A stretch of 64,000 bases of DNA from Liolophura sinensis. Its lineage: Eukaryota > Mollusca > Polyplacophora > Chitonida > Chitonidae. Every line of letters starts with the position of its first letter. Within the stretch, counting starts at the first letter, position 1. A program made the position numbers and the translations under genes. The stretch covers positions 29,844,628 through 29,908,627 of the forward strand of contig NC_088305.1 in NCBI RefSeq assembly GCF_032854445.1, written 5' to 3'. The notes beneath the pieces were generated by a model. That model searched no databases. It saw nothing but the letters and a program-made list of their open reading frames with translations, and was not told where the DNA came from. Of the stretch, positions 508 through 27,060 are shown piece after piece.

Positions 508-582
508 GTTTTGTATCACAGAGTTTCTCCACAAGAAGTCATCTGTACCCTGCCCACTGTGCAAGAAACCAGTCACAAGAAG
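508..582 (+). CDS. BRCA1: BRCA1 exon: C-terminal half of RING finger
   Basis: Acceptor ttttcag/G, donor AG/gtgagc. It encodes FCITEFL...CPLCKKPVTRR. The CPLC cysteines match human zinc ligands Cys61 and Cys64. The exon starts on the third base of a codon and ends after two bases, the same phases as human exon 5 (78 bp; here 75 bp). Confidence 0.93.
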
Positions 583-3500: not shown

Positions 3501-6500
3501 ATGCAGTGGCTAGGTAATGGAAATTGGATCATGTACAATGCTGTAATGGCCTGAGAAATGGTTTTAATTTGTGTTAGAAAGTTCAGCTGTACAAATTCAT
3601 TTTTCTCACGTTTTTTCAACATTTTGCTACCAACAGTTAAATCCGGTATAGTTGTTTCTGTCATGAATATTTTTTTTGTGTTCTGAAAATATTCCGTTTC
3701 TGATGCCAGACTTGAGCATATGGATCCCTGGTATGTATATATGGAAGTTTGACAGGTTTACTTTTGGTTGTGTTCATCAGCAAATCCATCACAAAGTTCA
3801 CAGAGTGGTCTCCCTTCATCAACAGCTGTCACTCTACAGTCTGGCTCTGCAGGTTGTTTTAAAAGATCTCTAGAGCAACCAAACTCTGCCTCCATACAGG
3901 TAAGACCGGGATATTGAATGAGAGCACAAAATTTGCACAAAACACAAATAACTCTCCACTTGTGCTTCTGTGAAAGCTTTTACAACACTGAAAATATCCA
4001 AGAGTTTTTGTGTGTTTTCATGGACATTTGGACTGAACCCACCAAAAATGGGTTTTTAACTATCATCTTTAGTTTTAAATGTCTTTTATAACAATTATTT
4101 TTTTATTTTGATTTTTGATTGTTTGATTTATTTTTATGTGCCTTTTCCTGCATTGTAATGGCAGATATTTTACACAAAAAAGAACTACTTATATTATATT
4201 TTTATTTGGGCAGTTTCTCTGTTAAATCAAGTTCATCTACTCTTATCTATTCTTCTTCGTGTATTTTTCTTGTTAGGTGATTCGCTGATAATGGCTCCTC
4301 ATGAAAGCTAATGTTTTATATGTTTTGTAAAACCAACGTTAAATAAATTATTGAGGCCTCCATGGACGCGGGCGTTAGCGTGTCAGTGCAGCGCAGTGGA
4401 CCAGGAGCCTCTCACAGATGCGGTCGCTGTGTGTTCATCTCCAGATCATGCTGGCTTCCTCTCTGGGAAGGTCTACCAGCAACCTGCGGATGATTGTCTG
4501 TTTCCTCCTTTCTCTGTCTGGTTTCCTCCTGTCTCTGTCTGGTTTCCTCCCACCACATTGCCGGCCACCATCATATAGGTGAAATGTTTTCAAGCATGGC
4601 ATAAAACACCAAAGAAATAAATAAGTTATGTGATCTTATTTTAGTATTTTTAAAAATTTGGATTAAGACGTCTGTTTTATCATCACTTTGATATTCCATC
4701 TCTTCAGTCTTGCATCACTGTATAAATCTATCCTTTCAGAATGATAAGTCTCTCAGGAACCTACGTCACTCCAAGAGAAGAAAGACCGAGGTCACACATG
4801 TGTTTATTGATGGTAAGCTCTGAATATATCCTTAAAAAACCTGTCTTAATCTACAGCTTTTGTCATTAGAAATTCTTGGCCCTAAAAATAAGCAAAGTTT
4901 TTGTGTTATGAAAGTGTGAGATCCATCATTAAAGGTAAGAAGAAAAGAAAGAGGTCATGTATGTACTGATGGTGTGAAGTTCTTTAAGGAGAAAGCTGTC
5001 ATATTAACCTTCTGTAAGTAGAAATTTGATAAAAAGCCAAAGTTAGGGGCTTTTACGGGCAAGCCAACACCAAAAACTCTAGACATGGAATAAAAATAAA
5101 ACTGAAAAATTTTGATCTTGATGTGTTTTGTTATTTTCCTGTTTTTCAAGGCATTTCAATTAAGTAAATATGTCTTCAACAGGACAAATTGCCAAAACAA
5201 TCTACGTATTCCAATAATTAGATGATTTCCAAGTTTTACTTTCATTACTATACTTTCCTCTGATACTGAGAAAAAATTTAGTCTGCTCGTAAAAAAAAAA
5301 ATAAATTTGGTGTGGCCCTGTGTATTATGAAAATTTACCAAACATAATAGATTACATTTTTAAGTTGATTTATCCATTACCTGTATCTTAACTGCTCTCT
5401 AGGTTTTTTTGTTATCCTTTTACAGATCTCACAGAGCCCTCGGAAGCGGCAGATTTGGTTCAGACCCATGTCAATGTTAGGTAAGTGCTAACATGTACAT
5501 ACATTTAGGATAAGTTTATTGTGGATTATCCTATACCTTTGCAAAAAGTCTGTCATAAAGTTGGTGATTCTGCAACGCTTTAGTTTCGGAAGAATAACTC
5601 CTCCACCTGTTGTCTCATTTTGATATCTTTTCTTGTGCAGGTACACTTTGTGGAACCTCAGATCAGGTTCCAAAAGCCATCAGATAAGATTCCAAAAACA
5701 TTGAAGTGCTTGATTTTTTCTGTTTAATATGATATTGATATATGTTAACATGCTTATTTTGCTATCAGTAGCACTAGTTCATTACTAGCTGTGAAGGAAG
5801 GATTCCCTTCTTCTGGTACTTGCAAAGTGTTGGAGGCACTAAGTGGTTGACGGCTGTCATTAGGCCATCTGTATATTCGTGAAGTTTGGTATGGATCGTG
5901 AAGTTTGGTAGAGATCACTGGCTTTACATCACTATGGCATTCTCCATTTGCCTGAACTCATACTGCAGGTGAAAATCTGTGTGTAACATATCAGAAAGCT
6001 GCTTGCCAAACATCTGTGATCTTGTTTCCTGCGCCCCCTACAACTAGCTGCCTCTGTTTAGGGTAAAAAATGTTCCTGCTTCTCCGATCAGTAAACAATT
6101 CTTCTTGTCTCTGTGTCATGTAAATTTGGGAACATGCTTGTTTTAAATATAACTTACAAGTGAAAGTTTTTTTCTTTTACAGTGGAGGATTTCCTGCGAG
6201 CAGAGTACATGGTAAAAAGTGCGCTAAGAAAGGCAACGTCGCCTCACGTAAGGTAAAACAGTCAAACAGTGATGGAGAACTGACCAGTTTACCAAATCCC
6301 ACAGAGCAAGCTGATGATGGGGAGGGTTCGTGCGAGGTAGAGCTGGTTAGGTACTTAGTGGAAGCTTCCTGTGGCGCACACTCCTCAAGTTCAAATGTCA
6401 CGACCCAGAGGTTAGAGGAGGAGGATCAGGATGAGTCAGATGGAGGATCAGTGTGCAGAGGTAGTTATGAGGAGGAGGAAAGTGTGCAAAGTGAGTCAAA

Positions 6501-9500
6501 CTGCAAGGAATTCGGTGACTGCGCTACAGAAGACAGAGATGATACCCATGATATTGTACATGAAGATGTTGTAATGCTTGAGAAGGGAGATGTTTCTGGC
6601 CATGCTAAACCAGAAAATAACCATGATCAGAACCCCAAACATGGACCAGGGGAAGAGAAGCATACATGCTCTAATGAAAATACGAAATTAAATGCCAAAC
6701 AGTCCAATGACCTTTGTGATCTGGCAGATAGTTTGGATTATGGATTCATGGAGGAAAAGTTTGGCACAGTTTCTCAAACAGGAAGTGTTCCGGGTTCACA
6801 ACCGCCAAAAGTTACAAAACCCATTTCGATTGGGACAAATGTGGCCGCTAAATCTAGTGTACCCTCTGGGGATCTTGAGATCAGTGTTCCTGTACTGGAC
6901 AAGTCAAAGTCCTGCAGAACTTATGCAACAAGGCAGAAGATCAAGAAAGTCTCCAACTGGATGTACAATTTGCCACCAAGTGTAGGAAAGAATTCCGTAA
7001 ATTCTGGCTGTACTTCAGAACCCAGTGTTTCTACAGGTGCATTAAAAAAAAGTGATTTGGCCTTGGAAGGTAATGTGGAGTCTGAGTTGACAACAAAACG
7101 CCCCCTTCTGGCAAGGAGGATATTCAAGAGCAGACAGCTGTGTGCTGTCAAAAGATCAACGCCGCCCAGAGAGGAAATCACAGACCCTAGTGCTGAAGAT
7201 GATCCTTACGTGTTCAAATCTAGCCAGAGAACTCCGAAAAGAGGGAAGAACCAAAAAGGCCGAAAGGGAGGGAAGAGGGCTTCAAGAGGAAGAGTGAAGC
7301 AAAGGGCAAAGGATAGAAAGCCCCAGCTGTGTGTTGTTCAGATGGAAAAGACAGATGCTTCTGTGACATCAGATAATCAAGCTACAACTCCTCAAGTGGT
7401 CTTGGAAACACAACCGTTTGAGATAAATGGCAACCCTGATGAGGATGTATTAAATGGTGAAGAGGAATGCGAATCCATGCAGATCCGCAGGCAAACATCT
7501 GATAAAGTTTCTCCAAAAGCGATGGGCGAAGTGGGTGGAGCGGTTTCAGGTGAAGTTTCAGGGGTGAGTGACAGTGATTCCGCGGTAATTCCTCCTAGTG
7601 TGTTTGTACCGCCACAGAGAAGAGTGCTGAGATCATCTAGGCCGCAGCAACCACTGATACTTAACACTGATTCTTGTGCTGAGGGTAAGAAGATGGGAAA
7701 GCAGAGGAAAAACAGAAAACTGGAAGTTGAAGCAAAGAAGCAAGCTGATCAGAGAGATATGGATAAGCTGATTTCAAAGATTAGCCAGGCTGAGAGTTTT
7801 GAATTATTATTCTCCAGTCAGGATGTTCACAAGCAGATGACTGCAGAGACCAGAAAAAAATCACAAAGATCTACCGAGGACAGAGCTGTTCAAGAGTCTG
7901 AGGCATCCGATGAAGGTGGAAGTAGTTCTCAAGACATAATTAAAGATACACTTGAAACAAATGCTCAGTTAGAATCAACTAAAGGCCCAGGGGATCCCAA
8001 AACAAAATGTTCTTCAGTGCCACCAAAAAAAGTGATATCGTACGAATTGCCATCAATAGCTTCCAGGCAGTCTGCTTCTAGCCCCAAGAATCTGACGCAC
8101 ATTTTGCCCTCAGCAGATGTAATTGCTCCTACTTTATCCAAAATGGGGAAATTGCTCAAGTCCGTACAGGTTAAACGAAAAACACCCTCTACTTCTGCCA
8201 GCCCAGATTTACTGTCTAAACGCCCCGCAGTATCTGATTTTGTAGGGGAGACCTCTGAAGACAGTAGCGTTTCCATCATTTCACCCACTGGGCAGCCAGG
8301 CCAATTAGCTAAAGCATCAACCCCACCCACACAGGTCAGTCCATCAAATCAAACTGGTGAAGTTTACCACAGTTCTGGGGTCTATTCAAAAGTAGCCGAG
8401 GATGAAAACAAACCGGTTCCATCCTCATACAATATGCAGAAACCAACAAATCTTCAAGATGCAACAGGTGGGTTTGTAATCATAATGCTTATGTCCATAC
8501 TTGTAGGCTACTAACTTGTTGATGTTCAATTCATCATCTTTATTGCGGAACATCTTTAATATATAAAATTAAATTTTGTCATTCATGGTGCTTTCTTAGA
8601 ATGTGAAAAGAGGATTAAGTGGTTCTCAGGACAGTGTATTTGTATCTTCTGGTCACAAAGCTTGTTTAATTTTGAAGGCCAGTCTGATCAAGTTTCTTGT
8701 GAACATTATTCTGTGGTTTCACACAGAATTAAATATCTTGACTCGGTTTTATTTATGGACATGCAGTGCATAACGATTGTGTTGATTTGACTGAAAGACT
8801 AACACTCAGTCTGTATGGTGCTACATGTAAACAAGTTAAGCTAGGCATCAAAACAGGCATTTCCATGCCTGTAGAAAGGCATTGTAGGACTAGAACAAGC
8901 ACGACAAAAATGCTTTTTCAGAAGCAGATCAAGCCTAAAATTGAGCCTTTTGATGCCAATACTTCAGGGCAAAGAGAACACTAAAATATAGTTGATATTG
9001 AATTAAAGGCCTTTAAACAATGTTCATGAAATTAGTTTAATTTATTTTTTTTTAGAATTTTTCAACCCAATAAGATGTTTTTTTTTTTTTTAAACATCTG
9101 TAGTGATCCAGAGGATATGAGTGACTTCAAATCCATATTTTTAACTTGACATTTCATGTCAGGGTACATTCAGCGAATACATTCCTAGCATCTACAAGTA
9201 CATATGTATACAGGTGCACCATGGTCTTCCTCCGTTCAATGTTTTAAGAACTGATATCTTCAAGGGGTTATATACTGAAAATGATACTTCATTTTGAGAA
9301 TGCCATCACAGCACTCATGAGCTCATGTGCAGATGAGAAGGGATGGGAAAGGGCCATCACCCACCCACTCATTCTGTGCTTTGAACATGTGTATCATTAG
9401 GTTCCAACTTCTGGAGGGGATAGGAAGGCCTCAGTAATGGGCCGTCTCCCACTCACTCGTTCTGTGCTCTGAACATGTGTATCATTAGGTTCCAACTTCT

Positions 9501-12500
9501 AGAGGGGATAGAAAGGGGTTAGTAATGGGCCGTCTCCCACTAACCTACCTCTTCCATTGGTTGGGATAGTTATGGTGGCAAAATTCGTACTTGCTTTTAT
9601 TATTATTTCACTGTTTTTGTGTGGATTTCATTTGTAAGATTTAAATATTTATAATAAAACTAACAAGTAAACATTTGCTAAACACAGTACCACGGCGCAA
9701 TTTAAGTCCATAGTTTGTGATAGCATTTTCAGGCCCTATACAAACGGGGTGAGCATGTGAAAGTATAAGCACATTCCCGTCCGGTGGATACCTTTGACGG
9801 AGTCAAGTGGAATGTCATTACATAGTAACATAAAATACATGTATATACTGAGAAATCTGTTTTCATTTTCTTTAATTTGCGAATTGTAATTAAACTTTTT
9901 GAGATTTAGAGGTTTCTCCCTTCATGTGAAGGAGTGTAAGCACCCTAGTGAACCTCAGTTCAGATCACCAGCTTTGACCTGATTTATACTGTCCATAATT
10001 TATACTGTCCAAAACATTTCTAGGCGAGGTAGAGGAGAGCCAAAATCATGTTGTGTTGCATGAAGATTAACGGATGGAACAGTTTGTGTGTGAACTTCCC
10101 TGCGTTGAAAATGTACCTGCTTTTTCTGTTGTCATTACTGTTGTTTCCTCTTCATAATAATGTGTAAGTAAACAGTTACATTTTCTATCCACCAAAGCAT
10201 CTGGCGGGGGTAATCTCAATCACAGTTCAGGAAATTATACCAATGTATTCCCAACTACATGCTCAATGGGATACAGTTTTGATGGGGAGAATAGCTATCC
10301 ATACACCTGACTAACCTTTTTTTAAATTTTGGGATCTACCGAATGGTATTTTTCCGTGCCAGCTGAAGGGGCTCCTGTGGGGGCTTCTGATACCTGTGAA
10401 ATGGGATAAACACCAAAGGGGTTCTGTTTGGGATTCTTTCATAACGTACATGAATTGGTTTATAACAAAAATCTTCTGTTGTGGTCATGATTATTATCAT
10501 TTGGCTATTTTAATTTTGGCCCAGCGTGCTTTGAGAAAATTTTATTAGTCTGCATATTTCACACTTTTAAAGTATTTTTACACCTTTGGTGTAGTGGGGA
10601 AAACTTCATCGGTTTATCTGATGAAGTCGGCACTATTGGACATTGGAACAAACTATGCAGAACTGACAAAAGCCCCACACCTCCACATGTAGGTGAAATA
10701 ACCCTAGAATATTTCTTGTCCGGCCAACATCCAGTATCTTATTGGTACTCCTTTAGTAACACCGACTACTGGAGCTAATCTTAAGAAAATTGACCATCTG
10801 TTTCCTCTTTCCATTCGAATCACAAAAAAATGTTGCTTAACTCTCAACTGCTGCCACAAAACTAAAATGTGTGTAAATCTAATTTTGATGCAGTAAATTT
10901 ATCTTTTATGGTTTGTTTATATTTGATGATACATATATCTTCAAACATACTATGCTAAATTGATGTCCTCTCTTTTCTTGTAAATATTGTCTTCTTTGTA
11001 TTAATGTATTATAAACTTAACTGTGATCCTATCACCAAACTACTGTAAATTTATTTGTTTTCCTTTCATTTGTATCTAATTATTTGAGAATTTCTTTGAT
11101 ATGATACATGTAAGTCGATGTGTCTCTTCTGCAAATATTGTAAGATAATGTATTATATAGAGGGCCTCTGGGCAGAACAGTTCTTGAGAACTGACATAGC
11201 TATGTCTACATTTGTATCATAATTACCCTCTGAAAATAAAGTTATACATGCACACACACACACACACCACACACCACACGCACACCACACACCACACACC
11301 ACACGCACACCACACACACACACACGAATGTATTGGGTGTATGATATGACTTTGATGTAGTTTTGTACACAAGTCCATGTTTGTGTACCTATATGATGAC
11401 TGACTGGTCGATCATATTACAGTATTTGTGCACTTTTAATATATGAGGAAAACAGATAAAATCAGTTCTCTTTTGCCTTGTGTTTGTTCAGAAGCCCCAG
11501 CAACCAGCCCAGGATTGTTGTTTTGTACCGAAGACAGTGATAGCAGCTCCACAGAGGACTTGGACATCCACCCAACCTCTGATGAGTACGCCATACCCGC
11601 ACTAGGTAAGTGAGACAATTCCTACACATCTTTTGTGATTCACTTCAGCAAAATGCCAGATGAAAATTCATTTTCCAACATAAAAAAAATAAATCAGGGG
11701 GGCAGAACTCATGCTTTGAAAGCCTGCTTTGCTCGATACCCAAGTGAGGAAAATAATTGAAAGGAATATTAGTCCATCTGTAAGACTTTAACTGGAATGG
11801 GGACCTCCGTGGCTCAGCTGGTTAGTGCTCTAGCGCAGCGTAATGACTCCTGAGCCTCTCACCAATGTGGTTGCCGTGAGTTCAAGTCCAGCTCATGCTG
11901 GCTTCCTCTCCGGCCGTACGTGGGAAGGTCTGCCAGCAACCTGTGGATGGTTGTGGGTTTCCCCAGGGCTCTGCTGCTTTCCACCCACCATAATGCTGGC
12001 TGCCGTTATATAAGTGAAATATTCTTGAGTAGGGCATAAAACACCAATCAAATAAATAATAAATTAATTGAAATGTATTCCAATGCCATTAGATGCAGAG
12101 GAGATCTTAGTTATCAAGAGGAACACAGCAACTACATGTATTTTTAACAATACATGTAGCTTCTGTGAGACACTGTAGGACTGTTTGCTAACTGCTTTAG
12201 AATTGCCTTCACCGTTTGTTTAGTGGGGGTAAGGTTTTTCAGCCAACCATCTTTGCACTTCTGTGACTGGAATTCTTCACCCTTTTTGCATATTTGCAAG
12301 GTGTTTATTCAAGCATATTGTGGAGGCATTATTCTGTGTTAACTGATAAAATTATACTTTCTGTTAAGCCTTGAAATTGTAGGTTTGTCCAACCCAACCT
12401 AAGAAGTTTTTGTACCCAAAATCAGATTTAAAAATGTGCATAAGTTGCACTGAAAGTTGCTCTTTCATGTGCAAAAAGGTTGAGGAGTTAGGGTAATCTG

Positions 12501-15500: not shown

Positions 15501-18500
15501 GATTCTGATTCAGAACTGAAGGAGGAAGAACCCCTCATTCGCAGGGTGAAGCGCACAAGGAGCCAACGAAATCTGGTAAATGGTTCAGGAAGTTTTCTGT
15601 CCGATTCCAGTATCTCTCAGTCCATTCTTACTGAACCAAAGACAAAAGCTCAAGGTAAAAGTCAAACTGCAGAAAACCCTCCAGAGCCAACACAGATCTG
15701 TGAGGATACTCTGAGAGAACAGTCCCCAGAGAGTAGAACATCTTCTGCTAAAACCAAGGGCGCTCATCTTGATGATTCCCTGGTGCTGATCAAGAATCTG
15801 GTCAAGACACAGGCTTTGAAAGCCAAGATGAGCAAAGGCAAGGTTGATAGTCCCAGCAGCTCTGTTGTGGGAAGACCTTGTCAGAACACATGTACTGCGT
15901 CTCAATGTCCAGACAAGGTGAAAAAATTTACACCAGCAGTGGTGTGTGATCATGAAGAAGATTTTGGAGAAGGTCGTAAAGGGAAGGAAGATGATCTCCG
16001 AGTTTTGAGAAGCTCAGCCCAGCCGAGAGATGATGACAGTAAATGTTCTCAGAGAAATGAGTCGCAGCCATATGAAACTGCAAAGGTAGGTACAAGAAAA
16101 AAGAATCGTTTCACTGATGGTCAGGGTGTGAAGGACACATGTGACAATCTTAACGCAGCAACCACAGAGGGTGGAAAACAGTGTTCACCAGATGTTGTGC
16201 TTGGTAGTGGAGAGATTCCTCACCTTGGTCCTGGACAGTCTCCCGTGGAAGAAGTCTCAGAGAAGTCTGAAAAACTGCGCAGAAGCGGAAGACGTCGACG
16301 GGGGAAAGTGATTAAACCAGTGATTGTTGACACTGATTCAGATTCCGACAGCCCCTTTGAACTCACCGATGCGGCTGAGATTGAGGACCAGGAAGATTTG
16401 CCAGAGTTGGAGGTTACCAAGGACCCAAAGCCTGAATCAAGCCAACAGGCACAGGTAGTTATTAACTCAAAGTTTCAGGCCTGGGAAATCAGTGAATTTA
16501 AAACGTGTTTGTCTAACCTTGAAAAGCACATAATAGTAAGATGTTTGAACAGTATACCAAAAGCTGTTGATTTACAAAGGTTTTCCATTCTTGCTTCGTT
16601 ATTTTCATTATTGTGCTTGGTGGGAGGGGGTTGGGTGTACTGAATAATCTTTTCAAATGGAGTCAGCTACATGTTCATAGACAAAGCAAACTACTCTGAT
16701 CAAGTAGAAAATGTTTTCTGTAATTTTATTTTTGAATTGTGGGATACATATCAAAATCTGGTGTTTCCTTTAGGTGTGCTTTGATAGAGAGCAGAATGAG
16801 GGAAATGATGGGTCCAAGCCAAAAAAGAAACCTGTTCGTCCTGTGATCAGTGATGACAGCGATGATCCAGATGATGATGATGATATTGTGAAGCCCGGTG
16901 ATGCTGAAGGTTAGTATCCAAGAGAAATAAGGGAAAGGTTTTATTCAAGTTTCCTGTGATTTCTCTCTCTGTCTTTGACTTACATCCAAACTGACAAAAG
17001 GTTGTTGAAAAGTGAAAAGGTGTGTTGTCATGTAGATGACTATAGGTTGAAATATTGTGTCAGGGATGGAAAACCAATTTAGCTGTTCCAGGTGACCAAT
17101 TAAACCAAAGGGAATGACACTGTAGATAATATGCAGGTACTTGTAGTATCATCCTTGCTGTTGTTTCCTTTGTGAGTTAAGCCATATTGACATGGTATGA
17201 TTTGTCGTATTGAATTTGTCTAGTGGACTGAGAAATGACAGCTGATTTCAGATGATGTGAATTGCTGAATACTACAATGCGTGAAATAGGACTAGTTGAA
17301 TGTGACTGGTTTGACAAATATGTCAGTGCACCTAGTGGTATTTAGTAACACCAGAAGTTCATTACCTAGGAGTATGCAACTTCCCTATACCTAGTCTCCA
17401 CGGCACGGTACACATGTTACATCATCTGTAGAAGCTCGCGACACCTGGTGGAGAAATATGCCAACTTCTTGGGTGGCAATCATTAACTGAATCACAGGAA
17501 ATCCAATTGTAAACGGCTGCTACAAGAACTGGCCGTACCTTAAAACCGAAACTCTGTATTTAAAAACTACAATTTCGATAATCATTGTTGGCATGCAGCT
17601 ATAAACCCATTGACTATTTTTTGATATTTCCAAGCAACTCTAAAACAGTTACTGTCATTGTTGTCTATTTACAAAACACTCCATAGTGGTAAGTTTTTAA
17701 AGTCTATTTCAACACAACTGCACAATGGAGAAAAAAACATATACGGCTGCTCAGGAAAGTTGCATACTTCTAGGTAATGGACTTATAATAACACTAATCT
17801 ATACACGTACATATTTGCAGCAAGATGTAAGAGTTGTCTAAAATATATTTACATTTTCCATTACCAGTTTTCATAAAAATGTGAATGAAATGAAGATTAT
17901 ATGCTTATTTGATTGATATTTCAGCAGAAGACTGCAGTCAGGACAATAAATCTGCCAATCTGACTTCCTCCAGTGCCTTTTCAAGCCAAAGTGAGCTCTT
18001 GTGCACACAGGTAATTTCCACTCAAGACTTCCAGTACATGTATGTAGTATGGAGGAAATGATGCCTCAATCAGTCAACAACTCAGGTTTTGAGTTTTGTG
18101 TTAAAAAAACAAATAAAGAAAAAAAAATGGCTGGGTCACAAGCTGTGATACATGTACATGCTCATTTCACATCATTATTAAAAGCAAGAAACTCGGTTTC
18201 CTCCCACCATAATGTTCGCCGCTGTGCTACTAGTGAAATACTCTTGAGTACAGTGTAAAATTCCGCTCAGATAAATAAATAAATGACAAGCAAGAACACC
18301 ATTCCCACAACAACATCATTAGTGTGTTCCTCTTAGAGCTGCTTGTGACATCTGATAGTGATCAATTTTGCCAAGGTCCAATTGGTTTGTCTGAAAATTC
18401 AAAAAAACACAGAAAGTCTTTCAGCACTATTGTAGTAGAGCCTTGCTGACAGTTACAGTGTAACTGTTGACTTTTTGCTGGCTGCTCACTTTGATCATTG

Positions 18501-21500
18501 AGATCAACAGGTTCAAATCCAATAATCCTGTTTTAATGCTATGGTGCAGGGATTGACCTGTCTTCTTTTATTTGCTGCTCACTATTAAATCCAGAATGTA
18601 TTATCATAGTTAAATGTATTAATTATTGTATTGAACCTGCGGATGGTTGTCTGTTATCATCGGGCTCTGCCTGGTTTCCTCCTACCATAATGCTGGCCGC
18701 CGTTGTATAAGTGAAATATTCTTGAGTACGGCATAAAACGCCAATCAAATAAATAAATAAATAAATAAATTATTGTATTGTCCGTACTTCAAAATTTTCA
18801 AACCTTGGTCTGTAATCATACAGCTTTGCCTGAGTGTTGCACTATTTATTTCATTTCCTCTAGATTCTTGTATCAGTTCTGTCTGAGTGAAGTGTTATGG
18901 AATCAGAATCTTGAATCATTTACGTATGGTTTGTTGTATATCGTTTATCTTATTCAGCAACGCTCCAAGCTTGAGCAGGATGTGGAGAGAATGAAGCAAG
19001 AGATTGAAGCTTTGGAGGCCCAGTTGGCCGCTGAAGACTCTGCTCTGCTGGAGAGCACTGTAAGAGAAGCTAATGTAACTTTGGAAACCAGTCATCTTGA
19101 AAGCATTGTGAGCAAGCCTAGTGAAGTTGAGATGGAGACTAGTAATGCTGATCTCACTGTGAAAGAGCCAGGTGATGTTGAGACAGAGACCAATGATGAT
19201 AACATCACTGTGAGAGAGCCTTGCGAAGTTGACAATGAGACTAGTAAGGCTGGTATGACTGTGGGTGACCATATTGAAGTTGAGATGGAGACCAGTGATG
19301 ATGACATCACTGTGAGAGAGCCTTGCGAAGTTGACAGTGAGACCAGTAAGGCTGGTATGACTGTGGGTGACCATATTGAAGTTGAGATGGAGGCCAATGA
19401 TGTCGAAAGCTCTGTAATAGGGCCTAGTAATCCAGATGACATCCACAAGACAGGCGTTTGTGGGTTGAAGAGGAAACCAGAAAGGATGCCAACAAGTGAG
19501 TTTTTGCAATGATGGTTCTTTAGCCTAATTCCTCAACCGTTTCGCTTATTAAAGAGCAACTTTCAGTGCAATTTATGCACCTTTTTCATTTGATTTTGAA
19601 GACAAAACTTCATTAGTAGGGTTGTCTCATTTCAGGGCTTTACTAAGAGTATAATTTGATCAGTCCACACAGACTAATGTCCTCTGATCGTCCTGAAATA
19701 TACACCTTGCAATTATGCGAAAAGGTTGAAGAATTATGGTAATGGTTGTTCCCGACCTCTGTCTGCAGTTCGTTTCAGCCCATCATGAAACGTTTTTTTG
19801 AGACTTTGGTTTGTAAAATGATTTGTCATTCTGAATTCAAAATAGGTATATGGCTTCACCATGACAATGCTTAGTTTAGCAATGTTTAGTTTGGCAATGT
19901 TTAGTTTGGCAATGTTTAGTTTGGCAATGCTTAGTTTAGCAATGTTTAGTTTGGCAATGTTTTGTTTGGCATTGTTTAATTTGGCAATGCTTAGTTTAGC
20001 AATGTTTAGTTTGGCAATGTTTAGTTTAGCAGTGTTTAGTTTGGCAATGTTTTGTTTGGCATTGTTTAATTTGGCAATGCTTAGTTTAGCAATGTTTAGT
20101 TTGGCAATGTTTAGTTTAGCAGTGTTTAGTTTGGCAATGCTTAGTTTAGCAATGTTTAGTTTGGCAATGTTTAGTTTAGCAGTGTTTAGTTTGGCAATGT
20201 TTAGTTTAGCAATGTTTAATTTGGCAGTGTTTAGTTTAGTAATGTTTCATCCATTTTCAACGAAATAAAGGCCTTTTATCTGTACTTTCATTTTGAACAT
20301 CAGGTTTCAGAATGATTCATTATATTGTATTAAAACTTGGTACATGTGTATGGTCTCGCATAAGCTACTAATGAAATGTGAGTTTCTTGCTGTTTTGTCC
20401 ATTTTTAACCAATTGACAGCTGTTTTCGTTGTGTGATATAACCTGATATACATGTGAAAACACAAATGGACTATTTTGATGGTAGGGAACAAGTATTGCT
20501 TTTATATTCCTCCCAGATGTCTAGTTGCTTTTATCTGTTCTAGCCATAGAAGAAAATTATGACCTCTTGGAGTTCTGATGTAGCAATCACTTTGATTTAA
20601 CATGACTAAGGCATGCGGATATCTGCTAATTGCAAAGTCCTTACTTCAAACCTTGCAGTAGGTGTAATAATGTGACAGTACATGTATGACCCAAATCATA
20701 GAACTTGCACATGGAGACTTACCTGCCACATAAAATATGGGTTCATACATTTTCAGGAGAACTAATTATTTCATTTTCAGCAAGAAATTAATTTATTGCC
20801 CTTTTTTCTGTGCAGAAATTTTCTGTAAATCATTATTTATTTATTTGATTGGTGTTTTACGGCGTACTCAAGAATATTTCACTAATACGACTGCAACCAG
20901 CATTATGGTGGTAGGAAACTGGGCAGAGCCCGGTAAAAAACCCACGACCATCCGCAGGTTGCTTGCAGACCTTCGCACATACGGCCGAAGAGGAAGCCAG
21001 CCTGAGCTGGACTTGAACTCAAAGCGTCCAGTAAATCATGTGGATTTTTAGGGGAAAAGCCTTCCACATTGTTCAAAACTTACTAACGTTTATTCTGTGT
21101 TATAACACAGTCATCGACCCAGGGATTTCACAGAAAAAGGTGACTTATCAAACCACAAAAGCTTTCTCCTATGTGAATTGGAACTTTATGGGCTTACACT
21201 AACAATGCTACCAAGTAAAATACACCCTAGCCCTGGCTTCCTCTCCAGCTGTACGTTGGAAGGTCTACCAGCAACCTGAGGATGGTCGTGGGTTTCCTCC
21301 CATAATGCTGGCCGCTGTTGTATAAGTGAAATATTCTTGAGTACAGCATAAAACACCAACCAAATAAAAAAATAAATACGCCCTAGCCTGTGATGTTCTT
21401 ATAAATAGTACTCCCTCATGCACAACTATTCAAATAGTGAACTGTGGTTTGAAATGCACTGGTTGAAAGCGGGATGTTATGTGACCCCTTTTTAGAAGAA

Positions 21501-24500
21501 TCCTTTTCGTCCTGCACATCATAGACACTGGGTGAAGGGAGTGACATTCTCACTGAGGTACTCTGACTAGAAGCAAGATACCAGTTTGTATACCTGTGTG
21601 TGACTGGTATATTTAATATCTTGAGAAAGTTTTGGTTCATTCACTGCATACTGTAGTGAAATATTTCATGGCCCAGAGGCTTAGAAAGAACTGGCCTTGA
21701 TTCACCTGTGGTTTCTTGTGTTATGTTTTCTTTGGATTTATGAAAATGCAGTAGATATGTAAGTCAGTTTTGCTGGAGGTCATTAGGCAAGAAATTAAAT
21801 AAAAGGAAAGCATAATATATTTGCAAATGTTGAAAAAAAAACTAACCCTTTTTGTGTGATCTTAGGGAATATTGGAGTGGAAGAATATTTAGGCTTTGTA
21901 CTGTTTCTAATTCTGGGAAATTCTGTGCCAAACTGAAACAGTGTGGATTATTGCTTGTCACAGGTTTAAAAACATGTCCACTGGAGGAGGAGAAATGTAG
22001 CCCAAGTAGAGAAGAAGATCGGACAAATAAAGTTCCTCCAACTGATGCCACTGAGATAGATATCCAGTGTATATCATCCAGTCAGGAGAGTGAAGACTTG
22101 TTTTTGAGTCCTCGGTCACCTTCCCCTCCACCATCACTACCAGACACCAACATTAAACCTTCAGCCGTCTCTCAGGTTGTTCTGAAACTCAAGGAGATAT
22201 TTAAGGCAGTATCACCTGGTCATTGTGGCAATAGTCCAAACAAATACAGAGGTTTGAGCCCAGACAGTGCCAAGTCAACACCGCCATGTTCCCCTCGCTC
22301 AGAACGCCCTCTGGTTTCTGCCCAGAAATCTATCTATAAGGATCCCACTTCTGACACCAGTCTGGCAAGTCCGGCAGGATCGAGGGTAAAGGCAGGCCTT
22401 CCCAAACCATTCCAGTCCCCAGCCTTTACTGGTGTTCTCCAGGGCAAGGGCTCTCGTTTTCGGACCCCGCAGAGGTCTAATGTTATGTCACCCCTGGGTC
22501 GCACAACACCCAGCGGGGATGGAAAATCGTCCAGTCGAAGACTCTGTTTTGTAACAACAGGGCTTCACCTGTCTCAGGCTGTAAGTATATGTAACCACTG
22601 CTTTGAGTGGTAAATATTAGGCCTTTCACCCATGAAGCTGATTACCTGGTAACATATTGGGCCTGAAACCCACGTTTTCTCAGAACCCCATTATCTGGTG
22701 ACCAAATTCAAGTCACAGGAAAATGACATAATTTATAATTATTATCTTCGTGTGTTTTCTTTGTGTTTTCAGTGTGTACAGTTTATCTATCATCATGTTG
22801 TTATTCCTCTAAAAATTCCTTTTCTATAAAAAATCATTTCTTTAGACATTATTCTCAAAATTTCCTTTGTATGAAGGTCCTCAGAGCATGGAGGAAACCA
22901 TCTTGCTTTGTCTGATCTCCGACAAACTTCCTCACTGTAAATCTCAGATGAACCAGCTGGACCGAGAATTAAACACAAAACCTTAAATTTCGAGTAGCAG
23001 TTTTCTTCTGAAAGAACCCATCACCTTGTCAGTAAGACCATTTCTAACAGTATACATTTTAAAAATAACGGGGCCTTAGTCTAAATCTGAAAGTGCAAAA
23101 ATGTGCATCTCTTCATTTTCGATTGCAGCAGAGGACACAGAAACTAGCTCAGATGTTCAATATCAAGATACAGCCTAAATTTTCACCAGCAGCAACTCAT
23201 GTGATCGTTAAGACAGGTAAGTATGTGAATGAAAGGGACACATAATGACTGCTGATTGTCTTACACCTCTGTGCAAACCATTGTCTCTCTGGTGCCATAC
23301 ATGTACATGTAAATGTACCACACCCTAGCTGACATTCAGCCTAGTCTTTGCATAGCCTGCACTTGCCTACTACTTGTACAAGCCAATTGGCTACAATTCT
23401 GCTTCCTGCTTTAGTAAGAGGCTTTCACAAGCCAAACATGTTTTTAAATATATAGTGCATGTATGTATATGTAAGCCCTTGACATAGTATTTAGATTTGC
23501 CGTCTGTTTGGTACAGTTGTAACCTCTGAAAGGTTGTGGGTTTACCCGGTTTCCTCCCACCATACATGGCCCGCCATACATGTAGTATATGTGAAATATT
23601 CTTGAGTATGGCGTAAAACACCAATCAAATAAGTAAATAAATAAATGTGGTACGGTTGTCGTGAATATGCATGTAAGATGCATGTGGCATGAATATGTAA
23701 AGATGCATTTGGCTTATATATGTAAAGATGCATTTAGTATGAATATGTAAAGGTGCATTTGGTATGAATATGTAAAGGTGCATTTGGTTATGAACATGTA
23801 AAGACACATTTGGCTTATATATGTAAAGGTGCATTTGGTATGAATATGTAAAGGTGCATTTGGTATGAACATGTAAAGATGCATTTGGCTTATATATGTA
23901 AAAGTGCATTTGGTATGAATATGTAAAGGTGCATTTGGCATGAAAATGTAAAGATGCATTTGACACAAATATGTAGAGATTTCATTTTATGATAATAAGG
24001 ATTTAAAAGATATTAGGAGAGAAAAAATCTTGTGTTAAAGTGCCCTTTTTTGCATGGTCGGTTATGTTTAACACCACAAAATATTTATATTAAATGTTTT
24101 TAATTGTTGATGTTTTATCCACAGTCTCAGAGGACAGTTTGGTGTGTGAGAGGACATTCAAGTACTTCCAGGCAATAGCTCATCATTGCTGGCTCATCTC
24201 TTACCAGTGGGTGGAAGACTGTATAACAGCCAATGAGATCCTTCCTGAGGTAATGTGGTTCAGTCACAAACCCATCTGAGTAGAATTAGTAGCCTTGATA
24301 CTACCTGCTTTCCAAAGAGGCTAGAGCAAGGGAATAGGGGTGGTTGGCTCAATGTCCGTGTAATGCAACTGGGTGCAGTGTCATATCTGTTGTTATCTGT
24401 AGGATACTTCAGTGTGGCAGCACTTTGGCACATGGACTCGCCCTGCCTCAAGAAGACACAGTGCACTATATGTATACACACATCAAGTGATTCCTCATCA

Positions 24501-27060
24501 TCCTATGACTGAAAGATTGTTAGGTATGATGTGAAAACTAAAGCATGCATACATGTATGTGTACATACTACTTGTCATGGCACTCCGCATAAGGGGATAT
24601 GAAATGTACATTCAGTATGGACTCAGTATGGGCTTAGGAGGGTTGTCATGTCTGGTGTCTGTGGCGAGGTATTTTATTGAGGCAGCACTAACAAATATGT
24701 TGATATTGAGATTGGCCTATAACAGGAAGAGTTAAAAATATGAATTATTCATACGAAGAAAAAATAGTGTACCATAAGTGACCTAAAATTTCGTTTCCAG
24801 ATTCCAAGAGTTCTGTTTTTTTTTTTCATAAGGTGTCCTTACGTTTGTTTGGAAGGTACGATGGTATCCTACCTTTCAGCACCAAAGTAATATTTTGTGG
24901 CATTTATTTGCACTTTGTTGGTCGACATTCAAGGTTATTTAGGGTATATAAATATGAAATGAGGAAAAATGAGAATGGATCAAATAAGAAAGCCTGTACA
25001 TAAGCCTAAATGACTGCCTTTGGATTAACCAGCATTCACACGGTGCAATGCATTCTTCCAAAAGATAAAATTCAACATAAATCAATATTTCTGAACTCTA
25101 GTAGTATAGAGGTTGTTTTTCAGTCCACAAATTGCATTTGACAGTTGACAAAAGTCAGTAAGACAAATGGCATCGTGTGAACACAGCTTTACATGACACA
25201 TGCATGTGACTAAGTGCCAGTCATTGTGTTGCAGACGGGGTATGAAATCCAGGGGGACACTGTGAGTGGCCCAAAACACAGAGGACCCCGCAGATCACGA
25301 CTCTACAACAACCCAGTCTTTGCAGATTTTGAATTCTTCTGCAATGGGGATTCCCCTAACCTTCCTCCCAGGTGAGATCTCAGTGGATGTTTTGACTTTT
25401 GGTTTTGAAGTTCTGTTTTACTGGTATAACCTCAGCCACCCCCTCATTCCATGGAAATTCTCCAGTCCTCCTCAAAATTCTCCAGGTGAGTTTTCTACTT
25501 TGAAGTAGAGTCATACACTTTGTGAATTTCTCCCAACTGAATTCTGAACTTTGTGAATTTCCCCTCAACTGAATTCTGAACTTTGTGAATTTCCCAGTTT
25601 AACCTATGTACATGTACTTTGTTAATCCATCCAAAGTGAGTTCATTTCTATCAGATTTCCTCTCTGTGGGTATTGTTTTCTTTTCACTCTGCTAACTGTG
25701 TTCACAGGAGAGTTTCAGAACCTGCTAACTGTGTCTGGTGGGACTGTGGTTACCTCCCCTGATGCACTGGGCGTGGACCCAGAAAAAACACAGCTGATAC
25801 TGGACTTGAATGAAGACCAGCATCCAAGCAACATCAGGCTATTTAATCGTAAGTGTTCCAGGTAACGCATCATTAAGGAAAAGTTTCAGATCAAAGATGA
25901 AATATACCCATTGCCATGTGAGGAAAAAGGTTAACCCTATGGGGATAGGTTTACATATACATGTAAATGTACGAACATAGCCCTATATGCAGCCTGCAAT
26001 CCATGGTTTTCAGTGTGCTGTACTCAACAGATTGATGCTGTTTGCTGTCCCTCACCATGTCTGCATCAAATGGCAGTTTGGTGATATTCTTCACCTTGCA
26101 AACGTGCATTGGACCAGAAATTTTCTCTACAAGACTTACATTTGTTCACAGCTTATGAGCCATGATTTATTGACTTAAATGTTTGACTGGTGTTTTATGC
26201 TGTCTTCAAGAGTATTTCACTGTGACCGTCATGAAGATGGGAGGAAACCAGGCACAGCCTGGAATAAATCCACCACGACCTTCAGCATTTTCAGCCCATG
26301 TTTAAGATTCCTGTATGATCACCCAGCATTAAACGGCGACAGCCATATTTTTCAGAGTAGGCCTCCATATGAAGTAACAAGGGAAATCAAGAAGTTTGAA
26401 GTGTTATCGATTAATTTATTGTCTGATTTATTTGATAGTGTTTTACACTGTACTGAAGAATATTTCACTTATACGACAGCAGCCAGCATTATGGTGGGAG
26501 GAAACCAGGCAGAGCTCAGGGGAAACCCACTAGGTTGCGGACAGACCTTGCCACATACGGCCATTGATTAATTTTGCAGGAATTTGAATTTTAGGTTACG
26601 TACGATACTCAGAAGTTTTGGTCCTTGGCGGGCCAAAAGACAAGGAATATCACTCTGACATGCATCAGACACATTAAACGACAGGGATTACGGACAACCA
26701 TATCAAACAAATATACAAAGCAATAAATATACGGATTACTGAAGGGTTGTAAAGGTAAAAATGTCAATTCAGAATGACAGAAAACCAAACAGTATTACTA
26801 CTGTACCCCACCATTATCCTTGCTTGTGGCTCTCCTTGAGCTGTAAATAGCTGTATTGTGGTTTTTGTGAAGTTTATTCACAGCTTCAAAAATTTATTTA
26901 TTTATTTTTATTTTTATTTCTGACAGGTCTGTACAGAAAATATGGGGTTGTGACTGTCTCCAGAGAGTGGGTGTTTGATACAATAACCCAGTACAAAGTA
27001 CAGCCTCTCCCCCACTACGTTCTCACATCCTTACCAAATATAGAACTGCCGTTTGTCTAG
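508..27060 (+). CDS. BRCA1: BRCA1 orthologue (RING-coiled coil-BRCT DNA repair E3 ligase subunit), 5' exons outside window
   Basis: Exons 508-582, 2023-2111, 3781-3899, 4740-4812, 5426-5480, 6183-8467, 11492-11605, 13864-16454, 16774-16909, 17925-18010, 18958-19495, 21964-22580, 23129-23216, 24125-24249, 25235-25371, 25436-25485, 25708-25848, 26927-27060. Each intron is GT-AG and the phase runs unbroken to the TAG stop, giving 2,483 residues from the first complete codon. What identifies it: the RING end with CPLC, a human-like follow-on exon, a coiled coil preceded by SSQSELLCTQQR, and tandem BRCTs with CERTFKYF and VSREWVFDTITQY. In the family, BRCA1 pairs with BARD1 through the RING to form a nuclear ubiquitin ligase; the coiled coil binds PALB2 and the BRCTs bind phosphopeptides in homologous recombination repair. 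The RING start (about 45 residues and the ATG) is not in the window. The protein is larger than vertebrate BRCA1, mostly in the disordered middle. No AATAAA is seen close after the stop. Confidence 0.93.
878..962. repeat. 18-bp tandem repeat
   Basis: About five copies of ttgctgatgatatctgt/a, intronic. Confidence 0.9.
996..1075 (+). mobile_element. SINE family A, 3' fragment
   Basis: Only the conserved tail remains (gtttcccc..., ataagtgaaatattcttgag, acaccaatcaaataaat). Confidence 0.85.
1690..1875 (+). mobile_element. SINE family A, 5'-truncated
   Basis: Body from gctggctttctctccagc through the tail, ending in a pure poly-A run after caatc rather than the usual AAAT repeats. Confidence 0.9.
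2023..2111 (+). CDS. BRCA1: BRCA1 exon after the RING
   Basis: The acceptor is acgtag and the donor gtgagt; 89 bp, the same length as human exon 6. It reads R-SLSERPKLGDIVSGI and ends AFHTDQESS, matching the human helix region SLQESTRFSQLVEELL...AFQLDTG that packs against BARD1. Confidence 0.92.
2112..3780 (+). other. BRCA1 intron with a diverged direct repeat
   Basis: Two diverged copies, about 168 bp apart, share cttgtgcatgctgaagttta (2459 and 2627) and flanking text from gtttgtc onward. The rest of the intron is A+T-rich with no gene that I can recognise. Confidence 0.6.
3781..3899 (+). CDS. BRCA1: BRCA1 exon (Ser-rich linker)
   Basis: The acceptor is gttcatcag and the donor gtaaga; the phase fits both neighbours. 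It encodes a serine/glutamine-rich linker (NPSQSSQSGLPSS...), 119 bp. Sequence similarity to vertebrates is low here, so support comes from splice sites and frame only. Confidence 0.75.
4352..4625 (+). mobile_element. SINE family A, near full length
   Basis: Diverged tRNA-like head (ggcctccatggacgcgggcg), central body and tail. It contains a local duplication of gtctctgtctggtttcctcc. Confidence 0.85.
4740..4812 (+). CDS. BRCA1: BRCA1 exon (basic linker)
   Basis: The acceptor is cctttcag and the donor gtaagc. It encodes NDKSLRNLRHSKRRKTEVTH and continues VFID; the KRRK cluster could act as a nuclear localisation signal (inference). Placed by phase. Confidence 0.78.
5426..5480 (+). CDS. BRCA1: BRCA1 exon (short linker)
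   Basis: The acceptor is ttttacag and the donor gtaagt; 55 bp, encoding DLTEPSEAADLVQTHVNV. It joins in phase to the giant exon at 6183. Confidence 0.78.
6183..8467 (+). CDS. BRCA1: BRCA1 giant exon I (disordered region)
   Basis: 2,285 bp, about 761 residues, low in hydrophobics and rich in Ser, Glu and Lys. Around 6940 it reads KIKKVSNWMYNLPPS, resembling the KVNEWF motif of human BRCA1. Around 7196 a DDPYVFKSSQRTPKRG stretch leads into a long Lys/Arg tract, a likely nuclear localisation or DNA-contact segment. It ends ACA-G/gtgggt. The open frame runs into the intron to 8514, but the next exon continues in phase only from 8467. Confidence 0.88.
8468..11491 (+). other. BRCA1 intron with tandem duplication and CA repeat
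   Basis: A ~100-bp duplicated segment at 9330-9545 shares gaacatgtgtatcattaggt and ttccaacttct. A (CA)n-type microsatellite with caccaca interruptions occupies 11250-11325. No gene is recognised in the rest. Confidence 0.7.
11492..11605 (+). CDS. BRCA1: BRCA1 exon between the two giant exons
   Basis: The acceptor is tttgttcag and the donor gtaagt; 114 bp. It encodes a Ser/Asp-rich segment (SPGLLFCTEDSDSSSTEDLD...). Vertebrates keep the middle of BRCA1 largely in a single exon 11, so this small exon marks a split of that block. Confidence 0.85.
   Translation, partial: KPQQPAQDCCFVPKTVIAAPQRTWTSTQPLMSTPYPH
11799..12063 (+). mobile_element. SINE family A, full length reference copy
   Basis: The head ggacctccgtggctcagctg resembles a tRNA 5' end with an A box (tggctcagctggttagtg). 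A B-box-like gagttcaagtccagc follows about 85 bp in, then the conserved body and a tail ending acaccaatcaaataaataat. Confidence 0.93.
12267..12496 (-). mobile_element. MITE family 1, copy 1
   Basis: Terminal inverted repeats gaattcttcaccctttttgc and gcaaaaaggttgaggagtta, with internal cactgaaagttgctctttc shared with the copies at 19521 and 28872 (reverse orientation here). Confidence 0.8.
12545..13335 (-). pseudogene. hAT-superfamily transposase remnant
   Basis: Read on the minus strand, it begins MSKQSKLSKFFGGGSES, continues with a TTF/BED-like zinc-finger segment (GMICNTCKSANFD and a later SRHQDSKQHIEA), and reaches the catalytic-region motif FIGIMLDETCDVSDK. Two frameshifts break it, one at the A-run near 13155 and one near 12786, and the C-terminal two-thirds is missing. 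It lies inside a BRCA1 intron, opposite to the gene. The family assignment rests on the DE(S/T)xDVS motif and layout. Clearly non-functional. Confidence 0.8.
13596..13628. repeat. Perfect 15-bp hairpin
   Basis: caaaaaacacgcgtc, loop aga, then its exact reverse complement. The flanks also carry gcgtcc on both sides. It lies 235 bp before giant exon II. Confidence 0.95.
13864..16454 (+). CDS. BRCA1: BRCA1 giant exon II (disordered region)
   Basis: 2,591 bp, about 864 residues, disordered. It contains basic patches (RKRTRRSAKQEAK near 15459; RRSGRRRRGKVIKPV near 16280) followed by acidic Ser-Asp runs (DTDSDSDSPFE) that look like CK2-type sites. It also has many SQ/TQ dipeptides, the usual ATM/ATR targets in this family. 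Donor is CAG/gtagtt. The frame stays open in the intron to 16643, but the phase supports the donor at 16455. Confidence 0.88.
16774..16909 (+). CDS. BRCA1: BRCA1 exon (acidic segment)
   Basis: The acceptor is cctttag and the donor gttagt. It encodes KPKKKPVRPVISDDSDD followed by an Asp run, echoing the basic-then-acidic motif at the end of the previous exon (VIKPVIVDTDSDSD). Confidence 0.87.
17350..17792. mobile_element. MITE-like element with ~24-bp inverted repeats
   Basis: Left end cattacctaggagtatgcaa (17362) and right end ttgcatacttctaggtaatg (ending 17781) are inverted matches with one mismatch, flanked by further agt/act complementarity. The interior is non-coding. It fills most of the intron between 16909 and 17925. 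Confidence 0.75.
17925..18010 (+). CDS. BRCA1: BRCA1 exon before coiled coil (SQ motif)
   Basis: It encodes AEDCSQDNKSA...SSAFSSQSELLCTQ, aligning with human SEDCSGLSSQSDILTTQ. Tandem acceptors (tcag/cag) allow an extra Ala at the start. It ends in phase 0, exactly where the human exon ends before QR. Confidence 0.92.
18190..18283 (+). mobile_element. SINE family A, 3' fragment
   Basis: From cggtttcctcccaccataat to the AAAT tail, diverged. Confidence 0.85.
18632..18770 (+). mobile_element. SINE family A, 3' half
   Basis: From aacctgcggatggttgtctg to a tail of AAAT repeats, ending 190 bp before the coiled-coil exon. Confidence 0.9.
18958..19495 (+). CDS. BRCA1: BRCA1 exon: PALB2-type coiled coil plus 17-residue repeats
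   Basis: It starts QRSKLEQDVERMKQEIEALE. Leu, Val, Met, Ile, Leu and Leu fall at a/d heptad positions (spacing 4,3,4,3,4), matching the human segment [20 protein letters not shown] that binds PALB2. Downstream, seven 17-residue acidic repeats fill 19069-19425. Donor is ACA-A/gtgagt. Confidence 0.92.
19069..19425 (+). repeat. Seven 51-bp (17-residue) coding repeats in BRCA1
   Basis: In-frame units start at 19069, 19120, 19171, 19222, 19273, 19324 and 19375. The consensus is roughly xEVEMETSxxDxTVREP. Units 3-4 and 5-6 alternate (CEVD.ETSKAGMTVGDH then IEVEMETSDDDITVREP), showing a recent 102-bp duplication (19195-19296 with 19297-19398). Confidence 0.95.
19521..19742 (+). mobile_element. MITE family 1, copy 2
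   Basis: Starts cctaattcctcaaccgtttc and ends with the inverted gcgaaaaggttgaagaatta. The interior shares aaagagcaactttcagtgca with the other copies. It begins just after the coiled-coil exon. Confidence 0.85.
19862..20250. repeat. 15-bp minisatellite
   Basis: About 26 units of agtttggcaatgttt/agtttagcaatgttt with higher-order patterning (tttgtttggcattgtttaat recurs). It is open as a Ser-Leu-Ala-Met-Phe repeat on the plus strand, but this is a by-product of the 15-bp period; it is intronic. Confidence 0.92.
20833..21035 (-). mobile_element. SINE family A, minus orientation
   Basis: The tail (tatttgattggtgttttacg) is at the left; the body runs to gagctggacttgaactcaaa. Confidence 0.92.
21230..21378 (+). 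mobile_element. SINE family A, 5'-truncated
   Basis: ggcttcctctccagctgtac through gtgaaatattcttgagtaca and the A-rich tail. Confidence 0.9.
21964..22580 (+). CDS. BRCA1: BRCA1 exon: Ser-Pro-rich linker and BRCT1 start
   Basis: The acceptor is gtcacag and the donor gtaagt. It encodes a Ser-Pro-rich linker (SSSQESEDLFLSPRSPSPPP...) and ends RRLCFVTTGLHLSQA. That end aligns with human RMSMVVSGLTPEE, the first strand of BRCT1, and the exon boundary lies at the same place. An upstream open stretch from 21852 is intron, since the phase only fits at 21964. Confidence 0.9.
23129..23216 (+). CDS. BRCA1: BRCA1 exon: BRCT1
   Basis: 88 bp, the same length as the human exon. It reads QRTQKLAQMFNIKI...AATHVIVKT, aligning with FMLVYKFARKHHI...TTHVVMKT. 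Tandem acceptors (gcag/cag) may make the first Gln optional. Confidence 0.94.
23525..23648 (+). mobile_element. SINE family A, 3' part
   Basis: ggttgtgggtttacccggtt through the AAAT tail; immediately followed by a 25-bp array. Confidence 0.88.
23665..23985. repeat. 25-bp minisatellite
   Basis: About 12 units of gcatttggtatgaatatgta plus aaggt. The minus strand stays open in several frames because the unit lacks stops. Intronic, in the BRCT1 intron. Confidence 0.9.
24125..24249 (+). CDS. BRCA1: BRCA1 exon: BRCT1 core
   Basis: 125 bp encoding LVCERTFKYFQAIAHHCWLI and SYQWVEDCITANEILPE. Arg, Thr, Lys and Phe of RTFKYF match human Arg1699, Thr1700, Lys1702 and Phe1704. It corresponds to two human exons (78 + 41 bp) fused. 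Confidence 0.95.
24350..24520 (+). mobile_element. SINE fragment (family B/C-like 3' half)
   Basis: Shares tggcagcac, catggactcgccctgcc and ctatgactgaaagattgtta with the fuller copies at 37273 and 50370. Confidence 0.65.
25235..25371 (+). CDS. BRCA1: BRCA1 exon: BRCT1-BRCT2 linker
   Basis: 137 bp encoding TGYEIQGDTVSGPKHRGPRR and FADFEFFCNGDSPNLPP, aligning with human [20 protein letters not shown]...LEICCYGPFTNMPTD. It covers two human exons (84 + 55 bp). Confidence 0.93.
25436..25485 (+). CDS. BRCA1: BRCA1 probable 50-bp exon in BRCT2
   Basis: The flanking exons (ending with two spare bases, starting with two) cannot join in frame. This stretch (acceptor aacctcag, donor ccag/gtgagt) has the length and open frame needed. 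It adds SHPLIPWKFSSPPQNSPG before EFQNLLTV. The acceptor has a weak pyrimidine tract, so the 5' boundary is less sure. Confidence 0.65.
25708..25848 (+). CDS. BRCA1: BRCA1 exon: BRCT2
   Basis: The acceptor is gttcacag and the donor gtaagt. It encodes EFQNLLTVSGGTVVTSPDAL and then EKTQLILDLNEDQ. The glycine-rich turn matches human LCGASVV. The position of human Met1775 is Leu here. Confidence 0.93.
26178..26285 (-). mobile_element. SINE family A fragment, minus
   Basis: gactggtgttttatgctgtc ... gatgggaggaaaccaggc; diverged. Confidence 0.75.
26415..26565 (-). mobile_element. SINE family A fragment, minus
   Basis: gaatatttcacttatacgac, agccagcattatggtgggag and the following body; the tail is at 26415. 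Confidence 0.88.
26927..27060 (+). CDS. BRCA1: BRCA1 terminal exon: BRCT2 end and stop
   Basis: It encodes RLYRKYGVVTVSREWVFDTI, then TQYKVQPLPHYVL, and ends NIELPFV-TAG. It aligns with human [20 protein letters not shown]...; REW is the invariant BRCT motif. Confidence 0.96.

Follow-up and report, generated by a model that had tools for sequence, protein, structure and literature searches.

An Intron Layout Shared by Chiton and Human BRCA1, Very Probably Inherited from the Ancestor of Protostomes and Deuterostomes

Introduction

How old is the intron layout of BRCA1, and how much of it was already in place before protostomes and deuterostomes separated? This question is raised by a stretch of 64,000 nucleotides, hereafter the window, on contig NC_088305.1 (G000:C11:29844628-29908627, plus strand) of the chiton Liolophura sinensis, a mollusc and thus a protostome. 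The species received this name by a correction (PMC12441733), and the assembly was built from HiFi reads, as stated in the available part of its description (PMC11068029). The first-pass annotation of the window had described an invertebrate BRCA1 with vertebrate-like exon sizes and phases, and had concluded that the layout is older than the protostome-deuterostome split. Molluscan BRCA1 as such is already known, since an ortholog of up to 2,942 amino acids was reported from the owl limpet Lottia gigantea (V4AQT9; PMC8483008); in the available main text of that paper the words intron and exon are absent. A literature search, with most subscription journals outside its coverage, had no paper on shared BRCA1 and BARD1 introns or their evolution among the matches listed.

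Results and Discussion

Identity and Gene Model

Judged by its sequence, the gene in the window is the BRCA1 ortholog of the chiton. The best PDB match of its RING domain is the human BRCA1 RING (5.8e-26, chain residues 4-96), and the Pfam family zf-C3HC4 is found in the same region (1.9e-11). The BRCT pair is closest to BRCA1 (6.4e-26, 94.5 bits), the best BARD1 match being at 2.6e-8 (37 bits), and both Pfam BRCT and BRCT_2 are matched in the C-terminus. The best PDB match of the coiled-coil stretch is mouse BRCA1 (7k3s), at a weak E value of 0.022. The zinc ligands, the isoleucine preceding C27, and the VCERTxKYF stretch are all conserved; we take the last to be part of the BRCT phosphopeptide pocket, and the roles of the zinc ligands and of the isoleucine are likewise assumed. 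By homology, the RING would form a ubiquitin ligase together with the BARD1 RING, the coiled coil would recruit PALB2, and the BRCT pair would read phosphoserine peptides. In the genome searched (609,464,459 bases in 632 contigs), a BRCT protein search, which was not very deep and did not reach the BARD1 gene, gave five matches, all at the BRCA1 locus, and found no second copy of BRCA1. A genome-wide search with Pfam BRCT gave a list of seven matches, and the BRCT exons of chiton BRCA1 are not among them.

Exons were read from the sequence, except that the first two coding exons were located by a motif upstream of the window and one 114-bp exon by simple scoring of coding potential and splice sites. 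Joined together, the exons give a model of 7,587 nucleotides and 2,528 amino acids in 20 coding exons, with a single, terminal stop codon and GT-AG boundaries in all 19 predicted introns, and thus provide a complete, testable gene model for an invertebrate BRCA1. The RING, coiled coil, and BRCT pair are in the same order as in human and mouse BRCA1, from which the chiton protein differs in its length, in a tandem acidic repeat that follows the coiled coil, and in a predicted insert in BRCT2.

All exons lie on the plus strand, and their human equivalents are given here with sizes in parentheses. The gene begins upstream of the window with exon 2, which has 80 coding nucleotides (80) at C11:29841633-29841712 (-2994..-2915, numbered so that 0 immediately precedes window base 1), and exon 3 of 54 bp (54) at C11:29844253-29844306 (-374..-321, counted likewise). 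The second half of the RING is encoded by the exon 5 equivalent at 508-582, 75 bp (78), phase 2 to 2, assigned by alignment of the RING to human BRCA1, and is followed by the exon 6 equivalent at 2023-2111, 89 bp (89), phase 2 to 1. The next three exons are the equivalents of exon 7 at 3781-3899, 119 bp (140), phase 1 to 0; exon 8 at 4740-4812, 73 bp (106), phase 0 to 1; and exon 9 at 5426-5480, 55 bp (46), phase 1 to 2. The first of them shows weak protein similarity to its human equivalent (its score is reached by 18 in 1000 shuffles), the alignment score of the second is reached by none of 1000 shuffles, and the third is assigned by order and phase only and aligns with the human exon no better than shuffles do (589 of 1000 reach the score). 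As a block, exons 7 to 9 score 47 versus 27.5 +/- 4.9 for shuffles, one of which in 1000 reaches the score; no similarity of this block to human was found by BLASTP.

The central region, encoded in human by exons of 77 and 3426 bp, is divided in the chiton among four exons. A long exon of 2285 bp at 6183-8467, phase 2 to 1, corresponds to human exon 10 and the first part of exon 11. It is followed, within the human exon 11 region, by the predicted 114-bp exon at 11492-11605, phase 1 to 1, the sole candidate above the thresholds in an exon scan of 8468-13960; by a second long exon of 2591 bp at 13864-16454, phase 1 to 0; and by an acidic exon of 136 bp at 16774-16909, phase 0 to 1, which has no human counterpart exon. 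The exon 12 equivalent at 17925-18010, 86 bp (89), phase 1 to 0, ends in ...SQSELLCTQ. The exon 13 equivalent at 18958-19495, 538 bp (172), phase 0 to 1, encodes the coiled coil (QRSKLEQDVERMKQEIEALEAQL) and then an in-frame tandem acidic repeat with a period of 102 bp in 2.9 copies, and is about three times the human size.

In the 3' part, a single exon of 617 bp at 21964-22580, phase 1 to 0, stands for human exons 14, 15, and 16 (127+191+311, together 629). The exon 17 equivalent, which belongs to BRCT1, lies at 23129-23216, 88 bp (88), phase 0 to 1. Further single exons correspond to human 18 and 19 (24125-24249, 125 bp versus 78+41, or 119; phase 1 to 0), to human 20 and 21 (25235-25371, 137 bp versus 84+55, or 139; phase 0 to 2), and to human 22 and 23 (25708-25848, 141 bp versus 74+61, or 135; phase 1 to 1). 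These assignments, like that of the last exon at 26927-27060, 134 bp including the stop codon and equivalent to human exon 24, rest on the BRCT alignment and the gene model; the coding length of the last human exon is, we assume, 125. The acceptors of the exons at 17925 and 23129 both read CAGCAG, so that one codon may be optional at each splice, and the 88-bp size presupposes use of the first AG.

A Predicted 50-bp Exon in BRCT2

The agreement with human phases breaks down at one point of the BRCT region. The exon matching the human 84+55 pair ends in phase 2, not in the human phase 1, and the next acceptor, at 25708, requires phase 1; a model that joins the two directly runs into a stop at codon 2439. 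Because of this phase 2 end, an extra exon without a human equivalent was predicted at 25436-25485, 50 bp, inserting about 17 residues. Its phases, 2 to 1, are exactly those required, and its donor is strong (score 6.1). The acceptor is weak (-0.8), although the accepted acceptor of exon 12 scores equally; the exon lies only 64 bp from the preceding one, and human BRCA1 contains nothing equivalent to the insert. These features would fit a direct junction of the 137-bp exon with the next, the phase conflict then being an error of sequence or assembly, an explanation that we consider rather unlikely. In the alignment, the insert is placed between the human NMPT and DQLEW stretches, a site that we take to be the loop ahead of the first BRCT2 helix. 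The origin of the assembly from HiFi reads (PMC11068029, in its available part) also speaks against a sequence error. The predicted 50-bp exon would resolve the frame conflict, which otherwise implies such an error.

Introns Common to Chiton and Human BRCA1

For comparison we used the 21 coding-intron positions of human BRCA1 as given in the available parts of three papers (PMC3519833, PMC6772163, PMC7370166). Against these positions, 15 of the 21 human introns have a chiton counterpart of equal phase in the same order: for ten the aligned site is identical, for three it is off by at most one codon or the alignment is weak, and for two the agreement is in order and phase only. Four of the exact introns fall in the RING region (2/3, 3/5, 5/6, and 6/7, by alignment) and five in the BRCT region (16/17, 17/18, 19/20, 21/22, and 23/24). 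The 16/17 junction lies four residues beyond the printed alignment, which was extended without gaps; at 21/22 the match is exact on the acceptor side, and the donor belongs to the predicted 50-bp exon, an exon omitted from the protein aligned. The tenth exact intron, 12/13, separates TQ from QR in phase 0 just before the coiled coil, between the exons at 17925-18010 and 18958-19495, and the alignment to mouse BRCA1 7k3s that places it is weak (E 0.022). Human exon 12 ends at Gln1395, according to the accessible part of PMC3519833. In the second tier, junction 7/8 is exact, but in a weak alignment, and 8/9 and 11/12 lie no more than a codon from the human sites; junctions 9/10 and 13/14 agree in order and phase only. 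Four exons are identical in size in the two species, namely those of 80 (coding), 54, 89, and 88 bp.

Several observations of the first-pass annotation are borne out by this comparison: the 89-bp exon after the RING, the 88-bp BRCT1 exon, the phase-0 TQ|QR junction before the coiled coil, and RING-exon phases equal to the human ones, the exon at 508-582 being three bases shorter than in human. Its description of the layout as vertebrate-like is sound for the 15 introns with counterparts and somewhat too strong for the whole gene. Six human introns are missing in the chiton (10/11, 14/15, 15/16, 18/19, 20/21, and 22/23), and four chiton introns are not found in human, three of them in the exon 11 region and one before the predicted 50-bp exon. 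Similarly, the fusion of two pairs of human BRCT exons, 78+41 and 84+55, was correctly recognized (24125-24249 and 25235-25371), but exons 22+23, 14+15+16, and 10+11 are fused as well, giving five fused groups in total.

Introns are known to favour AG|G-like sites, and such sites could have received introns independently in both lineages, in which case the match would say little of its age; one of the coincidences discussed below, a lone BRCT match with BARD1, does have a chance probability of 0.038. Within BRCA1 itself, however, all four RING introns and five of the six BRCT introns share both site and phase with human introns; under the assumption of uniform placement, the chance probability is 2.9e-9 for the four RING introns and 5.8e-10 for five or more of the six in the BRCT region. 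Parallel insertion was rejected on these figures as a general cause, and we regard it as very improbable. Since 15 of the 21 human introns have counterparts, ten of them exact in both site and phase, common descent is far likelier.

The intron layout of chiton BRCA1 was thus very probably inherited, as the first-pass annotation had implied from fewer junctions. Of the 21 human introns, ten or more, and probably fifteen, would already have been present in BRCA1 when the protostome and deuterostome lineages parted, and the differences between the chiton and human genes would reflect later loss or gain of introns within single lineages. The same reading has at least two of the RING introns, and probably one BRCT intron, predating the split between BRCA1 and BARD1. 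Retention of ancient introns between vertebrates and lophotrochozoans is a well-known pattern, of which the chiton BRCA1 introns are a clear example rather than a surprise. On this dating, much of the exon layout behind clinical variant naming would be older than the bilaterian split.

Introns Common to BRCA1 and BARD1

Chiton BARD1 is a separate gene at C11:11471633-11484111, minus strand. In a genome search with zf-RING_6 its exon ranked ninth, behind a RING on C13. The BARD1-type RING family PF14835 scores 52.1 bits with the chiton BARD1 RING (cut-off 35), and BARD1 is the best PDB match both of this RING and of part of the BRCT region. In the chiton as in human, BARD1 is distinguished from BRCA1 as a separate gene with its own type of RING. 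The possibility that the gene in the window is itself BARD1 or another RING-BRCT gene is rejected, within the reach of these searches, as practically negligible. BARD1 too combines a RING with a BRCT pair, and it ranks second among the families matched by the BRCT domains. Yet the best RING and BRCT matches are to BRCA1 (the latter by 94.5 versus 37 bits), BARD1 chains are absent among the best 60 of 107 RING matches, PF14835 reaches only 26.7 bits with the window RING, below the curated cut-off, the coiled coil matches BRCA1 best, though weakly, a scan of four exon frames gave no ankyrin repeat, and the genome carries a BARD1 gene of its own. BRCA1 (29.84-29.87 Mb) and BARD1 (11.47-11.48 Mb) are located on the same chiton contig, C11.

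The two genes nevertheless share introns. Exon 1 of chiton BARD1 ends in phase 2 within the codon of the second zinc cysteine; exon 2, 57 bp long like its human equivalent, likewise has a phase-2 end, located in the codon that follows CEHMLC. Positions of the human BARD1 introns are given in the available part of PMC6877745 (c.158 and c.215 in the RING, c.1903 with phase 1 in the BRCT region). Both RING introns (codons 53 and 72) map exactly to BRCA1 codons 27 and 45, so that BARD1 of human and chiton has phase-2 introns at the second zinc cysteine codon and at the codon after CEHxxC, as does BRCA1. At least two exact matches between the three BARD1 and four BRCA1 RING introns would be expected by chance with a probability of 6.6e-4. 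The third BARD1 RING intron, after the helix, agrees in phase (1) with BRCA1 6/7. Its offset depends on the gapped alignment used: one codon for chiton BRCA1 with human BARD1, three for chiton BRCA1 with chiton BARD1, and six for human BRCA1 with human BARD1, and it falls inside a gap for human BRCA1 with chiton BARD1; zero offset is obtained only by counting without gaps from a hydrophobic residue that is conserved.

A further coincidence was found in the BRCT region, where one exon of chiton BARD1 has a phase-1 end, its final base being the first of the codon that follows ...GKWVLNME. The pair of chiton BARD1 BRCT exons aligns to human BRCA1 (1jnx) up to residue 76 / chain position 70, and when the alignment is carried on over three residues without gaps, the split codon falls on W1718. 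In human BARD1 it corresponds to codon 635, the first codon past the end of the alignment and the site of c.1903, phase 1, as placed by the partly available source above; we take this residue to be W as well. Human BRCA1 intron 18/19 is at c.5152, phase 1, at Trp1718 (PMC3519833, available part). An intron at this codon is therefore present in human BRCA1, human BARD1, and chiton BARD1, and missing in chiton BRCA1. A motif scan did not find the chiton BARD1 exon following the W codon.

Because BARD1 shares the introns at the RING zinc codons, these are probably older than the BRCA1/BARD1 split. For the W1718 codon, the simplest history is an intron that predates the duplication and was then lost in chiton BRCA1; this step is probable, not proven, because a single match of this kind has a chance probability of 0.038. 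What is new here is that BARD1 shares with BRCA1 two zinc-anchored RING introns, plus the BRCT intron kept in human BRCA1, all of which probably predate the duplication. We thus think it fairly likely that some of the intron framework of BRCA1 arose before BRCA1 became a gene of its own, with one BRCT intron and two or more RING introns coming from a single BRCA1/BARD1 ancestor before the animal radiation, and the BRCT intron lost later in chiton BRCA1. BARD1 used as a yardstick in this way helps to separate loss from gain for one BRCT intron: for the fusion at 18/19, the comparison favours loss in chiton BRCA1.

In chiton BARD1, exon 2 forms the final unit of a tandem array with a 78-bp repeat unit and 10.2 copies (TRF), at bases 626-1418 of L010, or C11 about 11480625-11481417, minus strand. 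Eight further copies of the exon in this array are alike in 48 to 50 of its 57 bases. The GTAAGT donor of the real exon 2 occurs in none of the eight, three of them having GTTTGT, and the preceding AG is missing in five.

Surrounding Sequence

Within a BRCA1 intron, at 12526-13262 of the window on the minus strand, open frames match a zinc finger of the C17orf113 type (1.7e-15) and also DUF4371 (0.0095), the latter with a score under the curated cut-off; the combination is presumably like that in domesticated or mobile hAT-like genes. Downstream of BRCA1, at 47017-49540 and 52600-53118, a long open frame that matches no Pfam family is followed by a death domain (3.1e-12), both on the plus strand, and an asparagine synthase stretch (1.2e-16) lies on the minus strand in the same region. 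To our knowledge, none of these downstream genes is a neighbour of human BRCA1. Elsewhere in the assembly, contig C99 contains seven copies of cox1 about 15.5 kb apart, each with an in-frame TGA, a pattern suggestive of a mitochondrial genome concatenated within a single contig.
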